Assembly: GCA_902825775.1 (NCBI GenBank)
Contig: CADECF010000009.1
Coordinates: forward strand, 62,001 to 126,000
Length of the DNA stretch: 64,000 bases
Source: an uncultured Lysobacteraceae bacterium
Lineage (GTDB): Bacteria; Pseudomonadota; Gammaproteobacteria; Xanthomonadales; Xanthomonadaceae
Direction: 5' to 3'
The number at the start of each line of letters is the position of its first letter. Position 1 is the first letter of the stretch. Below the pieces are notes generated by a model. It was not told where the DNA came from. It saw only the letters and a program-made list of their open reading frames with translations, and did no database searches. Made by a program: the position numbers and the translations under genes. This document shows, piece after piece, positions 2,657-62,885 of the stretch.

Positions 2657-3367
2657 ATGAAAGCTTTGCCGATGCACTTGGCTTGGTTGCTCCCGCTCAC
2701 ACTGCTCGCGACGGCATGCGGACCGCGCGATGCGTCGCCCGCAACGCCTGCGGCCGAACCGGCGCCACCGACGCCCGCAGCACCGGCCACGCCCGCACCG
2801 CCCGCCGTCGCCACCCGCCGTTGGCGCTGCGGCGAACTGCTGGTTTCGGCCGCATTCCCGCAGGAACGCACCGAGCTCGCATTCTCGGGCCGCAAACTGA
2901 CGCTGCCGATCGCCAAGTCCGGCTCCGGCGCGCGCTACGCCGACGGCAAAGGCAACGAGTTCTGGAACAAGGGCGAACAAGCCATGTTCACCTTGGCCGG
3001 CGAAGAGAAGCGCGACTGCGAAATCACCGAGCATGCTTCGCCTTGGGAAGACGCCCGCGACCGCGGCGCCGTGTTCCGCGCCGTTGGCCAGGAGCCGGGC
3101 TGGTGGGTGGAAATCGGCGCCGGCGACGCGTATCCGCTGCACGCGGAACTGGATTACGGCGAGCGCAAAATCGATATCGCCCGCACCCAAGGCATCAGCA
3201 GCACCCCCGGCTACGGCGCGAAAATGGCGGACGGCACCGACGTGGTCCTGCGCACCAAGCAGGAAACCTGCAGCGATGCGATGAGCGGCGAGCGTTTCGA
3301 AACCAGTGCCCGGCTGACGGTCGGCGACAAGGTCTACGAGGGTTGCGGTGCCTATCTCGACCGCTGA
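2657..3367 (+). CDS. lipoprotein with MliC-like and COG3650-like domains
   Basis: A 236-residue envelope protein. The N-terminus has a hydrophobic segment ending in LLATAC, a slightly atypical lipobox, then a Pro/Ala-rich linker. Residues about 55-125 resemble MliC, the membrane-bound inhibitor of c-type lysozyme. They include a paired-Cys layout (WRCGE and RDCEI), ARYADG and the FWNKGEQAMF segment. The following part begins FRAVGQEPGWWVEI, which is typical of the COG3650 family often joined to MliC. A lysozyme-inhibitor role is therefore likely but not proven. ATG 2657 has GGAG at 2648-2651. The 3' end overlaps the methyltransferase gene by 20 bases, suggesting coupled translation. Confidence 0.72.
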   Translation: MKALPMHLAWLLPLTLLATACGPRDASPATPAAEPAPPTPAAPATPAPPAVATRRWRCGELLVSAAFPQERTELAFSGRKLTLPIAKSGSGARYADGKGNEFWNKGEQAMFTLAGEEKRDCEITEHASPWEDARDRGAVFRAVGQEPGWWVEIGAGDAYPLHAELDYGERKIDIARTQGISSTPGYGAKMADGTDVVLRTKQETCSDAMSGERFETSARLTVGDKVYEGCGAYLDR

Positions 3368-4127
3368 CGCGACCGCCACGGGCCAGGGACGGATAGCGGC
3401 TGTCGCCGCCCCGCCCGATCTGCTCGATGTGAATCGCAGCTTCTACGACGCGTTGTGGCGCGACGCGCGGCTGATCCCTCCGCAGCGTTTCAACAGCTGG
3501 CCGCTGGTCGCCGAACTGGCGGCGAACGCGCCGCGCCGCCTCGAGCTCGCACCGGGCCTGCGCCCGCGCCTGCCGATCGCCGGCACCGCTTTCGCCGACA
3601 TCAGCGCGCCGGCGCTGCGCCAGCTCGGCGCGCATGGCGGCCTGGCCACGCAGGCGCTGGCCGATGCCCTGCCTTATGCCGACGAGGCCTTCGACCTGGT
3701 CTGCGCTTTCGACATCATCGAACACATCGAAGGCGACGAAGCGGCGATGGCGGAACTGGCGCGCGTCGCCGCGCCCGGCGCAACGCTGCTGCTTTCGGTG
3801 CCGATCCACATGTCGGCATGGACGCCTTTCGACGATTTCGTCGGCCACCATCGCCGCTACGAACCGGACGCGTTGCTGGCGTTGCTGTCGCGGCACGGTT
3901 TCGCGCTGCAGCGCAGCGCCGCGCACGGCATGCAGCCCAAATCCACACGGCTGCTGAAACTGGGCATGTGGTACCTCACCCACCAGCGCGAACGCGCGAT
4001 GTGGTGGTACAACCGCGTGTTCATGCGTCTGGCATTGGGCGCGCAGCCGGCGCTGTCGCTATCGAGCGGCATGATCGATACCGACGGCGTCGACACCGTG
4101 CTGCTGGTCTGCCGCCGGGAACGCTGA
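3348..4127 (+). CDS. SAM-dependent class I methyltransferase
   Basis: A 259-residue class I methyltransferase. The SAM-binding region is visible as LELAPGLRPRLP (motif I position), DISAPALRQL (motif II), and LPYADEAFDLVCAFDIIEHIEGD, typical of Methyltransf_11 enzymes, followed by PGATLLLSVPIHM. HHRRYEP after the core is common in enzymes acting on cell-surface or lipid substrates, but the substrate is unknown. It starts with GTG inside the end of the lipoprotein gene, preceded by GAGGG, so the two are probably translated together. It converges on the diguanylate cyclase gene with only 9 bases between stops. Confidence 0.8.
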   Translation: MPISTADATATGQGRIAAVAAPPDLLDVNRSFYDALWRDARLIPPQRFNSWPLVAELAANAPRRLELAPGLRPRLPIAGTAFADISAPALRQLGAHGGLATQALADALPYADEAFDLVCAFDIIEHIEGDEAAMAELARVAAPGATLLLSVPIHMSAWTPFDDFVGHHRRYEPDALLALLSRHGFALQRSAAHGMQPKSTRLLKLGMWYLTHQRERAMWWYNRVFMRLALGAQPALSLSSGMIDTDGVDTVLLVCRRER

Positions 4128-56231: not shown

Positions 56232-56327
56232 GGTTCTGTCCCCTAGGTTGTGGTGGTTTATCGGAAGACGTTTTCATTCGGGAAAACGCCGGGCCGGACC
56301 TACAACGGCCAAGCGCCGAGCAATGCC

Positions 56328-56417
56328 GTAGCCCGGGTAAGGCCGAAGGCCGCACCCGGGTCCGCCGCAGCGGAGAGTTCGCACCCGGGTGCGCTTCGCT
56401 TACCCGGGCTACGCTTG
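56328..56417. repeat. inverted repeat CGTAGCCCGGGTAAG abutting a RAYT remnant
   Basis: GTAGCCCGGGTAAGGCCGAAGGCCGCACCCGGG (shown in parts: GTAGCCCGGGTAAG and GCACCCGGG) and CCCGGGTGCGCTTCGCTTACCCGGGCTACG form the same element as at 54112. Its right arm ends at 56415, and the reading frame of the RAYT fragment runs straight out of it. Confidence 0.85.
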
Positions 56418-56418
56418 C

Positions 56419-56619
56419 TATTGGGAGCACACCATTGCCGATGAGGTAGACCTCCAGCGGCATGTCGATTACATCCACTTCAATCCGGTCAAGCATGGTT
56501 ATGCGCGGCTTGCCTCTGAGTGGCCTTACAGCTCAATCCATCGATACATCAAAGCCGGTGATATGCCGGCTGATTGGGGTGACTCTTCTGATGAGGCTGC
56601 GGGAGGTGAAAGGTCGTGA
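56419..56619 (+). pseudogene. C-terminal remnant of a REP-associated tyrosine transposase (RAYT)
   Basis: A short fragment, about 66 residues, that reads WEHTIADEVDLQRHVDYIHFNP, then KHGYARLASEWPYSSIHRYIK and DMPADWGD. This is the C-terminal part of RAYT (Y1 transposase) proteins; the catalytic HUH motif and Tyr are missing, because everything before WEHTI is replaced by the REP-like palindrome. It is therefore a dead gene. RAYTs mobilise REP elements, so this remnant marks past REP activity. It forms the left boundary of the AT-richer three-gene island. Confidence 0.88.
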
Positions 56620-56669: not shown

Positions 56670-57536
56670 CTAATCATATTCAGTCTTATGTTGATAAGCG
56701 CAAAAAAACTCTGATTCACTCAACGCAGCGTAAGCAGCAATCTGCCAACTGTTCTTCACGGGCAGAAGTCCTGCGGGATTTCGGCGGGTATGTGCCTCTT
56801 CAGTCAAGTGATTGGCAACAGACACAGCTCCGCCTGATGCGAAAAGCCTGTTCATACGAAATCCAATATCCGCGATCAGCCTGCCCGTATGAGCAATAAA
56901 TAGCTTATTCAGTCCAAGAACCCTGAAATGCTCTTTAACCCTTCCCTGCTTTATTTCTGACCAATGTGCGGGTGGGTCGGCTGCGAAGTTCACGCTAGGA
57001 GGATTGCTTTCAATCACCGTGGCCTTTAGCCACACGCCATCTTCGACATTGTCGAAATAGGGATGAAGAAGCTGAAGGTCTGCGCTAGCGGCCTGTATAG
57101 TCGATTTGATCTTGTTACAGTCGCTACAGCAGGGAACTAGATTTACGGGAGTGACAGCGAAGGCAGGGTGAGAATCTTTAGGAAGATAGTGATCAAGCGT
57201 AGACACGGTGCGCTGATAACACGATGGACATATGCCAAATGGCGCGCTTACCAGCAGCGCATCGTAGAATGTGGCTCTTAAATACGAGCCTTTGCGAACA
57301 AAACTCCCGTTGTAGAGCTTTTTCATCTCTGCTAGAGACATAAAACCAATCTCAGCCGCAGCAGGAATCAAGTAGAGCTGCTCCGCGACCGCTCTTTGCA
57401 GGTAAGCTATTTCGGCCGCCTCAATCTCTGGTACTGAATTCCAAAGACGCTGAACGGTGTCAGCATCTTTCAAAATTTGCACCGCTGCATCCAGAACTGG
57501 ACGCACCGCGAACCCAGGAAGTCCCACTGGGCGCAT
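56670..57536 (-). CDS. HNH endonuclease, PtuB-like
   Basis: A 288-residue protein with an HNH nuclease core: CPSCYQRTVSTLDHYLPK supplies Cys103, Cys106, Asp115 and His116, and NLVPCCSDCNKIK supplies Asn132, Cys136/137, Cys140 and Asn141. That is a zinc-supported HNH (ICHNC-like) site. The arrangement behind an AAA ATPase resembles PtuB of Septu. The N-terminal 90 residues are helical and could contact the ATPase. ATG 57536 follows the ATPase TAA by one base (TAATATG); a longer TTG start at 57569 is less likely. The base composition is about 50% G+C, well below that of the rest of the window. Confidence 0.82.
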   Translation of the reverse strand: MRPVGLPGFAVRPVLDAAVQILKDADTVQRLWNSVPEIEAAEIAYLQRAVAEQLYLIPAAAEIGFMSLAEMKKLYNGSFVRKGSYLRATFYDALLVSAPFGICPSCYQRTVSTLDHYLPKDSHPAFAVTPVNLVPCCSDCNKIKSTIQAASADLQLLHPYFDNVEDGVWLKATVIESNPPSVNFAADPPAHWSEIKQGRVKEHFRVLGLNKLFIAHTGRLIADIGFRMNRLFASGGAVSVANHLTEEAHTRRNPAGLLPVKNSWQIAAYAALSESEFFCAYQHKTEYD

Positions 57537-57537
57537 A

Positions 57538-58677
57538 TTATTCTGTGGCTTCGTTCTGCTGTAACTCAAAACCCAAACCTCGAGCTATCGCGCGAGCTTC
57601 GGCTCCCAACTGACCGTTGAACTGTCGCAATACAGCTGCATAATCGCCATCTGAGGCTGTCACTGCATCTGCAATCAATTTGTGAAATCCAGACGCTGTA
57701 ACCTCAAGCCCAAAAACCTCACGCGTTAGAGAACCTACATTTTCACCAAAAGTCTCTAACTGAGGTCGCTCGGCAACTGCAACCGAGCCAGATCGCCGCA
57801 ATACCCATACACACGAACGTGGAACTTCTTGCAGCACAACGGGCGAATGCGTGGCGATGACAGCCACTCCGTTACGCGCGGTCAGTAGGTTAGAGAGCGA
57901 GCGCACCAACGCGGACAGCAATGGGGGGTGGAGATGACCCTCTGGCTCATCTATTAGGACGATAGTCCTTTCATCCACAAGTTCTACCAAACGGGTAATA
58001 GTTAGAAGCACCACTGCGTGCCCAGAACTAAGTTTTCCAAAGAACTCTTCACTCTTCTCGCGCCATTCTCCCTCACCCAGGTCTGCCAGTGACGTAACTT
58101 GCGTTTCCTCAAACAATGGGTCGCTTTCAAGTGCCGTAATAGCATCAATCCAACGTCGTCTGCGAAGGCCCACCCTGCAGGCCTCAAAACTCTTTCTGAA
58201 AATTCGGGCACCGCTCTTAGTGGTCTGGCCACTTCGGTCTGTGACCGCCCCCTCACCGATTAAACTAACCTGGGCAGACCGAAATGAGGATTGCGAGGGG
58301 CGCGGAAGCTCGAAATCATCGAAAGCGCTGAATGAGACATACACGAGCCCAGCAAATGAACCTCCAACATCTTCATTAGTAATTAGCGTTCCAACTGGAT
58401 TCGTAGTGTTCCCGGAATTCAGAATTGACCCAGCGAACGCTTGCAAGAATCTTGTTTTACCCGCCCCGTTCCTTCCAATCAGAACATGCACATTTGTCGG
58501 AGGGGCCGATTCCGGGATCACATGAAAATCAATAGTTGCCCCGTATGCATCTTGTCGATCGCCATTAAACGTAAACGAGAATTCAAACTCAGTTAACTGC
58601 GAATCTCCGTGTGCGAGCCTATTGAACTTGCTCAACACAGTAGAACGATTGATGAACCTGAGCAGAGATTCTCGCAT
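57538..58677 (-). CDS. AAA family ATPase, PtuA-like (OLD/ABC-type)
   Basis: A 379-residue SMC/ABC-class ATPase. Walker A is GRNGAGKT (residues 68-75), the signature-like LSSGH lies at about 216-220, Walker B is TIVLIDEPEGHLHPP with the Asp-Glu pair at 243-244, and the switch His is in ATHSPVV (275-281). These are the features of AAA_15/AAA_21 ATPases that work with HNH nucleases in Septu-type anti-phage systems. It is smaller than most characterised PtuA proteins. The ATG is overlapped by the upstream gene's TGA (TGATG). Low G+C indicates transfer. Confidence 0.82.
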   Translation of the reverse strand: MRESLLRFINRSTVLSKFNRLAHGDSQLTEFEFSFTFNGDRQDAYGATIDFHVIPESAPPTNVHVLIGRNGAGKTRFLQAFAGSILNSGNTTNPVGTLITNEDVGGSFAGLVYVSFSAFDDFELPRPSQSSFRSAQVSLIGEGAVTDRSGQTTKSGARIFRKSFEACRVGLRRRRWIDAITALESDPLFEETQVTSLADLGEGEWREKSEEFFGKLSSGHAVVLLTITRLVELVDERTIVLIDEPEGHLHPPLLSALVRSLSNLLTARNGVAVIATHSPVVLQEVPRSCVWVLRRSGSVAVAERPQLETFGENVGSLTREVFGLEVTASGFHKLIADAVTASDGDYAAVLRQFNGQLGAEARAIARGLGFELQQNEATE

Positions 58678-59075
58678 CACCTCCTCTTCCTGGTTCTGAA
58701 AAAAATATTCAGATCGTAGGCGCAGTCTCTTATAGCAACAAGAATCTTTACGCCGATCTCTCCAGGAAGAGATCGAAGAGTTTCATAATATGTTTCATCC
58801 TGTCCCAGCGAGAAGAAATCGCTATTGAGATCCGAGAAAGATTGTGGGAGTTCTGGAGCGCGGTGACCGGGAGAGATTCTTTCAGCCGGCAGCAATCCTG
58901 CTTGACCAAGCTTTACATTCCCAATATCAAACTTCTGCCCTTCTTCATCAAACACAACAAGATAGAACTGAGTTCTAAATTTAGCCCAGTCGTCCCAGCG
59001 ATCCTCGATCAGATACGCAACCCAAGCGCCCAGAATTGGCGCGGTCCTTGAAGCGTTGACTATCTTGAACTCCAT
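58677..59075 (-). CDS. 132-residue protein of unknown function, first gene of the AAA-HNH island
   Basis: A 132-residue soluble protein with an N-terminal IVNASRTAPILGAWVAYLIED region and the blocks KFDIGNVKLGQAGLLPAERI and FSLGQDETYYETLRSLPGEIG. I recognise no named family. The compact, mostly beta structure with a conserved-looking SLGQDxxYYE segment suggests a sensor or adaptor rather than an enzyme (inference). Its TGA overlaps the ATPase start, and it is encoded 27 bases after icmF in the same direction, so it could be reached by read-through from icmF. Confidence 0.75.
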   Translation of the reverse strand: MEFKIVNASRTAPILGAWVAYLIEDRWDDWAKFRTQFYLVVFDEEGQKFDIGNVKLGQAGLLPAERISPGHRAPELPQSFSDLNSDFFSLGQDETYYETLRSLPGEIGVKILVAIRDCAYDLNIFFRTRKRR

Positions 59076-59102: not shown

Positions 59103-62100
59103 TCACATGTTCCTTCGATATTCTCCGCCCACATCATATAAAGCATGACTGATCTGCCCCAACGAATGCGTCTTAACCGCCTCCATCAACGCCGAAAACA
59201 CGTTCTGGCGGTTGCGGGCGGTGTTCTGCAGGTAAGCCAGGCCGTGGCCGTCGTGGATGAAGGTGGTTTCTTCGTCGGCGTCGGCCAGGTGGGCGTGGGA
59301 GGTTTCGCCTTTCGGGGCTAGCGCGTTGCGCGAGGCCTGCCAGTTGGCGACGTTTTCGATCTGCTGGCCCTTCTCGCCTTCCGTGCTGCGGATCAGTTCG
59401 ATCTCGGTGGCGATCTCGCCGCCGTGTTCCTTGGGCAGGAAGGTGTTGACGCCGACCAGGGGCAGCGAGCCGTCGTGCTTCTTGTGCTCGTAGTACATCG
59501 ACTCTTCCTGGATCTTGCCGCGCTGGTACATGGTGTCCATGGCGCCGAGCACGCCGCCGCGCTCGCTGATGGCTTCGAATTCCTTGTACACGGCTTCTTC
59601 GACGATGTCGGTGAGGTACTCGACCGCGAAACTGCCCTGCCACGGGTTCTCGTTGAAATTCAGGCCCAGCTCTTTGTTGATGATCATCTGGATCGCCACC
59701 GCGCGGCGCACGCTTTCCTCGGTGGGCGTGGTGATGGCTTCGTCGTAGGCGTTGGTGTGCAGGCTGTTGCAGTTGTCGAACAACGCATACAACGCCTGCA
59801 GCGTGGTGCGGATGTCGTTGAACTGGATTTCCTGCGCGTGCAGCGACCGGCCGCTGGTCTGGATGTGGTACTTCATCATCTGGCTGCGCGCATCCGCGCC
59901 GTAGCGCTCGCGCATGGCGCGGGCCCAGATACGGCGGGCGACGCGGCCGATGACGGTGTATTCCGGGTCCATGCCGTTGCTGAAGAAGAACGACAGGTTG
60001 GGCGCGAAGTCGTCGATCTTCATGCCGCGCGCCAGGTAGTACTCGACGATGGTGAAGCCGTTGCTGAGCGTGAACGCCAGCTGCGAGATCGGGTTCGCGC
60101 CGGCTTCGGCGATGTGGTAGCCGGAGATGCTGACCGAATAGAAGTTGCGCACCTTCTGGTCGACGAAGTACTGCTGGATGTCGCCCATCATGCGCAGCGC
60201 GAATTCGGTGCTGAAGATGCAGGTGTTCTGCGCCTGATCTTCCTTCAGGATGTCGGCCTGCACCGTGCCGCGCACGCTGGCCAGCGTTTCGGCCTTGATG
60301 CGGGCGTAAGTGTCCGCATCGACGAGCTGATCGCCGGACAAACCGAGCAGGCCCAATCCCAAACCATCGTTGGTCGGCGGCAATTCGCCGTGGTACTGCG
60401 GGCGCTGGCGGCCTTCGAAGAGTTTCGCGATCTTCTTCTCGGCATCGGCCCAGCGCTTCGGATCGGCCTTCAGGTATTTCTCCACCTGCTGGTCGACGGC
60501 GGTGTTCATGAACATCGCCAGGATGATCGGCGCCGGGCCGTTGATGGTCATCGACACCGACGTGGTCGGCGCGCACAGGTCGAAGCCGGAGTACAGCTTC
60601 TTCATGTCGTCCAGCGTGGGGATGTTGACGCCGGAGTTGCCGATCTTGCCGTAGATGTCCGGGCGCGGCGCCGGGTCTTCGCCGTACAGCGTGACGCTGT
60701 CGAAGGCGGTGGACAGGCGCGCGGCCGGCTGGCCGACGCTGAGGTAGTGGAAGCGACGGTTGGTGCGCTCGGGTGTGCCTTCGCCGGCGAACATGCGGAT
60801 GGGGTCTTCGCCGGCGCGGCGGTACGGGTAGACGCCGCCGGTGTAGGGATAGCTGCCGGGCAGGTTTTCTTTCTGCAGGAACACCAGCAGTTCGCCCCAG
60901 CTTTTGTAGGTGGGCGCGGCGATCTTCGGGATCTTCTGGTGGCTGAGCGATTCGCGGTAGTTTTCGACGCGGATTTTTTTGCCGCGGACTTCGTATTCGG
61001 TCACTTCGTCGGTGATCGACTTCAGGCGTTGCGGCCATTCGCGCAGGAGCTTGAGCGATTCGGAAGTCAGCGATTGGATGGCGTCGTTGTAGCGTTGGCG
61101 CAGGGTCAGCAACGAGCGGTCGGGCGCTTGAGCCCCTCTCCCCTCGGGAGAGGGGTTGGGGTGAGGGTTCGGAGCACCAGCGGCTCCGCTGGCCGCCGAA
61201 CCCTCACCCTCGGTCCCTCTCACGGAGGGAGAGGGATGCAAAGCATCGACGCTGTAGAGATCGAGCTGCTTGGGCAGCTTGTCGTCGCCGATGTCCTGCA
61301 GCGATTGCCAATAACTCTGAGCCCGATCGGCCGCCTCAGCCTGCTTGTCGATGCCGGCATTGATCGCCCTGCCCTGTTCGGCGATTTCGGCCAGGTAGCG
61401 GACGCGGGCGCCGGGGATGAGCACGGTGGCGCGCGGTTCCTTGAGGGTGGTGTCGATGTGTGGGTGCCAATCGACGCGCGCTTGGCTCTTTGTGGGAGCG
61501 GCTTCAACCGCGAGCTTTTGATCTTGGAGTCCGCCATGGGCCGAAGAGCTCGCGGCTGAAGCCGCTCCCACAACAGCAGTACCTGCGGCAGCGAAGCCCA
61601 GATGCAGCTTCTCGCGCAGCAGACGGCACAGGTTGGCGAACATCCAGCTGATGCCGGGGTCGTTGAACTGGCTGGCGATGGTGGGATAGACCGGGACGTC
61701 TTCGTCCTTGGTCTTGAAGGCGACGCGGTTGCGCTTCCACTGTTTGCGGATGTCGCGCAGCGCGTCTTCGGCGCCGCGCTTGTCGTACTTGTTCAGCACG
61801 ATGAGTTCGGCGTAATCGATCATGTCGATCTTTTCGAGCTGGCTGGCCGCGCCGTAGTCGCTGGTCATCACGTACATCGGGAAATCGACCAGATCGACGA
61901 TTTCCGAATCGGATTGGCCGATGCCGGCGGTCTCGACGATCACCAGGTCGTAGCCCAGGCCTTTCAGGAACGCGATGCAATCCTTCAGCACCGCGTTCGT
62001 CGCCACGTTCTGCCGGCGCGTGGCCATCGAACGCATGTAGACGCGGTGGCTGCGCAGCGAGTTCATGCGGATGCGGTCGCCCAGCAGCGCGCCGCCGGTA

Positions 62101-62885
62101 CGGCGGCGGGTGGGGTCGACCGAGATCACGGCGATGCGCATCTGCGGGAAATTGGCGAGGAAGCGGTTCAACAATTCGTCGGTGACCGACGATTTGCCGG
62201 CGCCGCCGGTGCCGGTGATGCCGACGACAGGGGTCTTGCCCGCGGCCAACTGCCATTGCTTGCGCAGCTTGGAGAGTTCGCTTTCGGAATAAATGCCGTC
62301 TTCGAGTGCCGACAGCACTTTACCGATCGCGATTTCGTCCTGCAGGGCGGACCCCGATCCGCCTTCTGCACGCGAGAGGGGATTTTCGATGTCTGGCGGA
62401 AGGCGGGTCAGGACCCGCCCTACGCTATCGCGGGATTTCGACGCGCGCGCGACCACATCCTCGATCATTTCCACCAAACCCATCTTCATGCCGTCGTTGG
62501 GGTGGTAGATGCGTTCGACGCCGTAGTCTTCGAGTTCGCGGATCTCTTCGGGGGTGATCGTGCCGCCGCCGCCGCCGAATACGCGGATGTGCGGGGCGCC
62601 GCGCTCTTTGAGCATGTCGACCATGTACTTGAAGTACTCGACGTGGCCGCCCTGATAGCTGGACAGCGCGATGGCATCGGCGTCTTCCTGCAGCGCGGCG
62701 CGGACCACGTCTTCCACCGAGCGGTTGTGGCCCAGGTGGATGACTTCGGCGCCCTGGCCCTGGATCAGGCGGCGCATGATGTTGATCGCGGCGTCGTGGC
62801 CGTCGAACAGGCTGGCGGCGGTGACGAAGCGCAGCGGCGCGGTGTCGGCCTGGGTCTCGGGGATGCTCTGGGCAGGCGTGCTCAT
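59103..62885 (-). CDS. icmF: fused isobutyryl-CoA mutase IcmF with repeat-derived insertions
   Basis: A 1260-residue fusion. The N-terminal B12-binding domain has [10 protein letters not shown] (Asp28, His30), and a MeaI/ArgK-type GTPase domain follows with GTGGAGKS at 225-232. The large (beta/alpha)8 mutase domain carries [23 protein letters not shown] and [15 protein letters not shown]. It rearranges isobutyryl-CoA and n-butyryl-CoA, with its own GTPase acting as chaperone. Characterised IcmF proteins have about 1090 residues. The excess is explained by intergenic repeats read in frame: residues about 154-182, 438-466 (a full REP) and 550-585, all near domain linkers. No frameshift occurs. 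Confidence 0.93.
61133..61236. repeat. CCCTCTCCC-type repeat inside icmF
   Basis: CCCCTCTCCCCTCGGGAGAGGGG with GTGAGGGTTCGG and the complementary CCGAACCCTCAC form a nested dyad, translated in frame as about 35 residues (550-585) rich in Gly, Ser and Pro. The same element type is intergenic at 1319. Confidence 0.88.
61491..61572. repeat. REP element inside icmF
   Basis: The arms TGTGGGAGCGGCTTCAACCG... (61491-61516) and AGCTCGCGGCTGAAGCCGCT... (61547-61572) match the main REP family; the left arm has one change. The element is read in frame as residues about 438-466, between the GTPase and mutase domains. Confidence 0.92.
62342..62425. repeat. repeat-derived palindromes inside icmF
   Basis: GGCGGGTC-AG-GACCCGCC at 62402-62419 with a TACGC tail, and GGCGGA-N6-TCCGCC at about 62346-62363, code for residues about 154-182 between the B12 and GTPase domains. 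The first is a common intergenic dyad in this family of bacteria. Confidence 0.75.

Follow-up and report, generated by a model that had tools for sequence, protein, structure and literature searches.

A Septu-like ATPase-HNH pair of the PDC-M01 type behind icmF in an uncultured Lysobacteraceae bacterium, with an ATPase gene probably split by a one-base change of frame

Introduction

An ATPase, PtuA, together with an HNH nuclease, PtuB, characterises the Septu defence system, and PtuA also occurs in type I-A retrons (Ec78/Eco7, Ec83); passages of two reports describe PtuAB as acting on tRNA-Tyr (PMC11555353, PMC13096335). The PDC-M01A and PDC-M01B models of PADLOC describe an ATPase-HNH pair of this kind as the candidate system PDC-M01, and PDC-M01-type relatives with an intact ATPase gene are widespread. 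A further adjacent pair carries the names Ea59 and Ea31 in records of lambda-type phages. Both genes are given as non-essential in a table of one CRISPRi study (PMC10695390), and no defence test of ea59-ea31 was found in the literature searched.

The locus described here lies in the window, the whole stretch of 64,000 nucleotides that was analysed. With a probability of about 0.8, it is a PDC-M01 locus, a Septu-like ATPase-HNH pair whose ATPase gene has been split by a one-base change of frame. Both of its proteins match PDC-M01A or PDC-M01B, full-length or in consecutive parts, and its gene order and spacing are those of 77 of the best 80 of 473 relatives, whereas its A gene runs in two frames and that of the relatives in one. 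The pair was accordingly filed as an interrupted member of PDC-M01, the single A frame being the usual state of the relatives and not taken as a PADLOC rule.

Results and Discussion

Composition of the locus

Three frames are closely packed on the minus strand, namely a 132-residue frame (58677..59075), the ABC-type, PtuA-like ATPase part of PDC-M01A (57538..58677 from its ATG, or from 58680 if read from a GTG) and the gene of the PtuB-like HNH nuclease PDC-M01B (56670..57536 from its ATG; 288 aa). The first two meet in a TGATG stop-start overlap (58675..58679) formed by the TGA of the 132-residue frame and the ATG of the ATPase, and a single base separates the ATPase from the HNH gene. This arrangement had been described in a first-pass annotation and was confirmed, as were all of the motifs reported there: GRNGAGKT (Walker A), the signature LSSGH and IDEPEGHLHP (Walker B) are all kept in the ATPase, and the HNH protein contains the core CPSC...DH...N..CCSDCN. 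Packing and motifs exceed what chance would give, with two proteins scoring about 1e-143 and 8e-84 against defence models.

The G+C content was 0.466 for the 132-residue frame, 0.505 for the ATPase and 0.495 for the HNH gene (GC3 0.46-0.47 in all three), compared with 0.63 in the two flanking genes measured (GC3 0.85-0.87). The low G+C noted in the first-pass annotation is thus borne out, and the DNA looks foreign. Plasmid DNA matches to the locus were found in six records, were partial (67-73%) and were left aside. A promoter scan returned two sites against 2.3 expected, none of them directly upstream of 59075. Upstream lies an icmF-type fused mutase (59103..62885, minus strand; MM_CoA_mutase 1e-114, MeaB 6e-40, B12-binding 7.5e-19). 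Downstream, a 76-aa ORF (56389-56619) is followed by a SnoaL-like gene; this ORF has no Pfam match, looks by eye like the end of a REP-associated transposase and adjoins a repeat (about 56323-56419) found again in congeners.

The proposal that an ATPase plus an HNH nuclease follows the logic of Septu was upheld, in that PADLOC names PDC-M01A and PDC-M01B and the best solved matches of a modelled intact relative are PtuA chains. The HNH protein matched the PDC-M01B model PDLC04264 at 8.4e-84, and the best 25 of its 45 PADLOC model matches were all PDC-M01B. The ATPase is a PtuA-type ABC ATPase, and with the model of an intact relative the solved PtuA chains, from Septu and type I-A retrons, took the top 19 places among the best 50 matches listed. 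These chains, however, align only from model residue 147-161 on, so that an N domain of about 125 residues lies outside the match. The NCBIfam equivalog for the retron Ec78 PtuA gave 56 bits, far below its cut-off of 500. The HNH profile reached solved PtuB only at E 0.24-0.58, and the protein scored 13.4 bits with Pfam HNH, below the cut-off; the case for a shared action is therefore built on the HNH core, the ATPase and the order of the genes. A retron of type I-A was considered and rejected, there being no reverse transcriptase among the neighbouring ORFs of the pair.

The 132-residue frame as the N-terminal domain of the ATPase

The 132-residue protein, which had been regarded as unknown, gave no Pfam or NCBIfam match at E <= 1. 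PADLOC, however, placed it on positions 1-123 of the 510-position PDC-M01A model PDLC04235 (2.3e-34), with the ATPase on positions 127-503 of the same model (about 1e-143). In the PtuA1 model PDLC00282 the small protein again matched the N-terminus (1.2e-29), and the ATPase scored 1.8e-126. As the two frames match consecutive parts of one 510-position model, they are successive portions of a single protein. The PADLOC check of the three proteins, which had been suggested in the first-pass annotation, named PDC-M01A and PDC-M01B and placed the smallest of them at the N-terminus of PDC-M01A.

The relatives agree with this assignment. In the genome collection 473 were found and the best 80 kept; the N domain and the ATPase share one open frame in 78 of these 80, and likewise in 44 of 48 relatives on viral contigs. 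Amongst the genome relatives, one exception (L066, a Cupriavidus plasmid) has another ORF at 2735-3820 between the N domain and the ATPase, which by eye we take to be an IS630-like transposase inside the PDC-M01A gene, and in the other (L075) the contig starts within the gene. Four viral contigs (L171, L172, L181 and L182) gave no N domain with BLAST; L172 begins at the end of the stretch compared, L171 and L182 contain part of the ATPase only, and L181 has a diverged frame of 557 aa. An intact two-gene version was not seen among these six exceptions. The HNH gene comes next after the ATPase in 77 of the 80, and the three relatives without an HNH match all stop no more than 430 nt short of where their contig ends. 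There is overlap between some of the relative sets; L007 and L026, for instance, share an identical stretch of 200 bases.

Genome samples at three taxonomic levels gave the same picture. Within the bacterial family, 15 of 297 genomes had a PDC-M01A match at E <= 1e-20, and the 14 other than the window's genome carry it in open frames of 509-572 aa; 11 of these 14 match from profile position 1-3, and G250, G083 and G183 from positions 20, 348 and 349, respectively. The class sample (369 genomes) contained one strong relative (G423) and the phylum sample (398 genomes) three (G915, G943 and G1001), all of them in one frame.

A profile built from 70 N domains was also searched on its own against the family genomes and the phylum sample. 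It matched in 12 of 294 family genomes, 11 times in frames of 509-557 aa and once in the window, and in 6 of 396 genomes of the phylum sample, where four matches lie in frames of 515-564 aa and the others are the window and one further genome (G813). Outside the window the domain thus occurs in frames of at least 509 aa, except for one decayed copy in G813, and a stand-alone N-domain gene was seen in none of the 294 family and 396 phylum-sample genomes. N-domain matches were also present in 20 plasmid records, where the annotation, if given, mostly reads AAA family ATPase and otherwise hypothetical protein.

Judged by sequence comparison, what the 132-residue frame encodes is the N-terminal domain of PDC-M01A and no new component, and the apparent third gene results from the frame change. 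A genuine three-gene system with a small protein dedicated to sensing, to which the three tightly packed frames had pointed, was therefore rejected and retains a negligible probability, because PADLOC, the relatives and the N-domain profile alike show the small protein elsewhere as one domain of the ATPase. The idea that it precedes the AAA-HNH pair as a gene of its own fails for the same reason, its homologues being read in the frame of the ATPase; the suggested role as sensor or regulator falls for a separate protein and survives only for an extra domain. The decayed copy in G813 (L112) comes from a 71%-complete genome and is a broken PDC-M01A, in which the N frame (104 aa) and a fragment of the ATPase (154 aa) are out of frame with each other.

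The frame change

The N frame and the ATPase frame differ by one base, and within their overlap there is a run of seven T (58699..58705, minus strand; U UUU UUC in frame), the most probable place of the frame change. The N frame ends in ...LNIFFRTRKRR before its stop, whereas the -1 frame over the junction DNA continues as ...FFQNQEEEVMRESLLRF and aligns with intact relatives; it reads EEEVMRESLLRF where L009 has EEVVYESLLRF. Modelled alone, the N domain had a mean pLDDT of 92.5. The intact relative L026 was modelled from 65 sequences (mean pLDDT 91.1); there the N domain's last helix stops at residue 125 and the following one starts at 130, so that the stop in the window falls at the linker between the two domains.

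A real and fairly recent lesion is our first choice for this break, ahead of a working split, recoding or an assembly error. Of the columns conserved at 95% or more, the window copy keeps 18 of 19 in the N domain, 84 of 87 in the ATPase and 33 of 36 in the HNH protein, as is expected of a recent change. Intact motifs elsewhere and a stop placed neatly between domains, overlapped by an ATG, would, however, fit a tolerated split equally well. Such a working gene fission, in which coupled stop-start translation yields both halves and these join again as an active ATPase, is suggested by the TGATG overlap, the break at the domain linker and the catalytic motifs kept in all three frames. We nevertheless consider it unlikely, as the layout was seen once, with no second copy among the 80 (best of 473) and 48 relatives, and the AGGAGG lies only two bases before the ATG, a short spacing for a ribosome site.

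Slippage of the ribosome or the polymerase at the seven-T run could also yield some full-length ATPase, since the run has the X XXY YYZ pattern in the right frame and the -1 frame stays open through it. Relatives do not share the run, however: over the 72 nt compared, none of 78 has an unbroken stretch of at least seven A or T, and three have one of six. The RNA downstream folds no better than shuffled sequences either (z -0.19 and -0.08, or -0.94 for a wider stretch), and such recoding appears distinctly improbable.

The remaining alternative is an assembly or sequencing error at the homopolymer, with the gene intact in the cell. The split is unique to the window's genome, and the 64-kb window contains only five A/T runs of seven, this one included, and none longer, both of which would suit an error. 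On the other side, the genome is 98.7% complete, and a comparison with 182 congener ORF queries speaks against widespread error: 51 of them align with the window in a single frame along more than 80% of the query. Two queries alone were flagged, both with their best-placed match at 66% identity in a region of many overlapping ORFs, and these two may be antisense ORFs. An error of this kind appears rather unlikely.

If the lesion is real, the frame would have shifted at or near the seven-T run, the N frame then stopping at the domain linker and the ATPase frame restarting at the overlapping ATG; the system would probably be off or weakened in the window's genome, with some leftover coupled translation of both ATPase halves possible. 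By analogy with PtuAB of Septu and type I-A retrons, we infer that an intact ATPase would assemble with the HNH protein and hold it until infection, whereupon the HNH protein would cut nucleic acid, which is tRNA or DNA in those relatives that have been studied, and phage growth would stop. The lineage-specific N domain could plausibly serve in sensing or in assembly.

The ea59-ea31 pair of phage lambda

Phage records were matched by the window's ATPase (25 records, mostly lambda and its kin) and by its HNH protein (19 records). In phage HK630 (L114, 3620-6084) the annotated ATPase and HNH genes are adjacent with a 4-base overlap and stand beside int and attP, and it is this pair that other lambda-type records call Ea59 and Ea31. 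The Ea59-like protein matched PDC-M01A at 8e-202 over positions 2-507 of 510 and the Ea31-like protein PDC-M01B at 5.8e-113; identity with the window was 37.8% for the N domain, 42.6% for the ATPase and 24.7% for the HNH protein. The two pairs thus correspond gene for gene, although ea59 is in one frame, unlike its counterpart in the window, and the phage pair belongs to a temperate phage, next to int and attP. As far as sequence can tell, lambda-type ea59-ea31 is a Septu-like ATPase-HNH pair. No publication that treats ea59 and septu together was found in the literature searched, which was covered without preprints.

A false three-gene system is hereby removed, and two testable points take its place. 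The N domain, conserved in a widespread ATPase-HNH family and lying outside the alignment with solved PtuA, is a candidate sensing element of this branch; and as ea59 and ea31 of lambda are of the same kind, the question can be tested in a classical laboratory phage. More tentatively, and with slightly less than an even chance of being right, PDC-M01 including ea59-ea31 may be a defence of the PtuAB type to which an N-terminal sensor domain of unrecognised fold has been added, the lambda pair, among the oldest of that phage still unexplained, being a prophage-borne Septu-like system and such modules being exchanged at the icmF 3' end in the bacterial family.

Three records of about 48.5 kb (NZ_CP104294.1, NZ_CP068597.1 and NZ_CP082339.1), filed as plasmids of three genera, share the same ea59-like match and may be misfiled lambda DNA.

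The site behind icmF

The icmF-type gene is conserved, and the DNA similarity to three congeners stops at its stop codon (59105), which forms the island's upstream border. An empty-site comparison with the three congeners gave a clean end on this side only, as their cargo differs. Behind icmF, G032 carries PADLOC matches to Helicase (3.3e-200) and DUF2290 (1.9e-21), G099 a HamB-like helicase (7.8e-52), and G072 a NACHT-domain protein (2.4e-11) followed by a 217-bp copy of the icmF tail (79%) and then PDC-S71 (2.2e-125). PDC-M01 was also found directly behind icmF in L026 (Luteimonas) and L009.

Twenty further genera were surveyed, 16 picked only for contig room (unselected) and four selected, three of the latter for extra icmF tail fragments (G012, G067 and G096) and one for its PDC-M01A match (G083). 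Thirty chosen genes from 14 of the 20 loci were scanned with PADLOC, and matches occurred in eight of the 20 loci (4/16 unselected, 4/4 selected). They comprise NsnA/NsnB (L210), PD-Lambda-5_A in part (L214), an Old/GajA-like protein (L226), DzbA/DzbB (L228 and L222), PDC-M34A with a distant PDC-M01 pair (L223) and, behind icmF tail copies, NsnA (L216) and a type II methyltransferase (L221); the genes scanned in L209, L211, L219, L220, L225 and L227 gave no match. Different AT-rich defence-type genes after icmF were seen in the window and in L105, L106, L107, L210, L214, L216, L221, L222, L223, L226 and L228.

A codirectional gene of at least 180 aa, with less than 56% G+C and within 400 nt of the icmF stop, was present in 11 of 23 loci (6/16 unselected). 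For comparison, such a neighbour was counted in one of 40 neighbour tests beyond 8 kb in the same loci and in 0 of 223 in 400 kb of one congener (Fisher p against 1/40: 2e-5 for all loci, 0.0014 for the unselected). The 56% limit was set after the list had been seen, so the enrichment is only a lead; as a lead, it points to the site behind icmF as a recurrent landing place for defence genes in the bacterial family and as a place to look for further ones. In the literature searched, again without preprints, the papers that name isobutyryl-CoA mutase, hotspot and phage together appeared unrelated to the subject.

Extra copies of the icmF tail lie downstream in L106 (13986-14201), L216 (6518-6988), L221 (1254-1841), L227 (1424-1522) and, with positions counted in icmF orientation, L222 (3614-4174). 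Four of these five loci have the copies directly before further cargo, as if the cargo brings or displaces an icmF 3' end.
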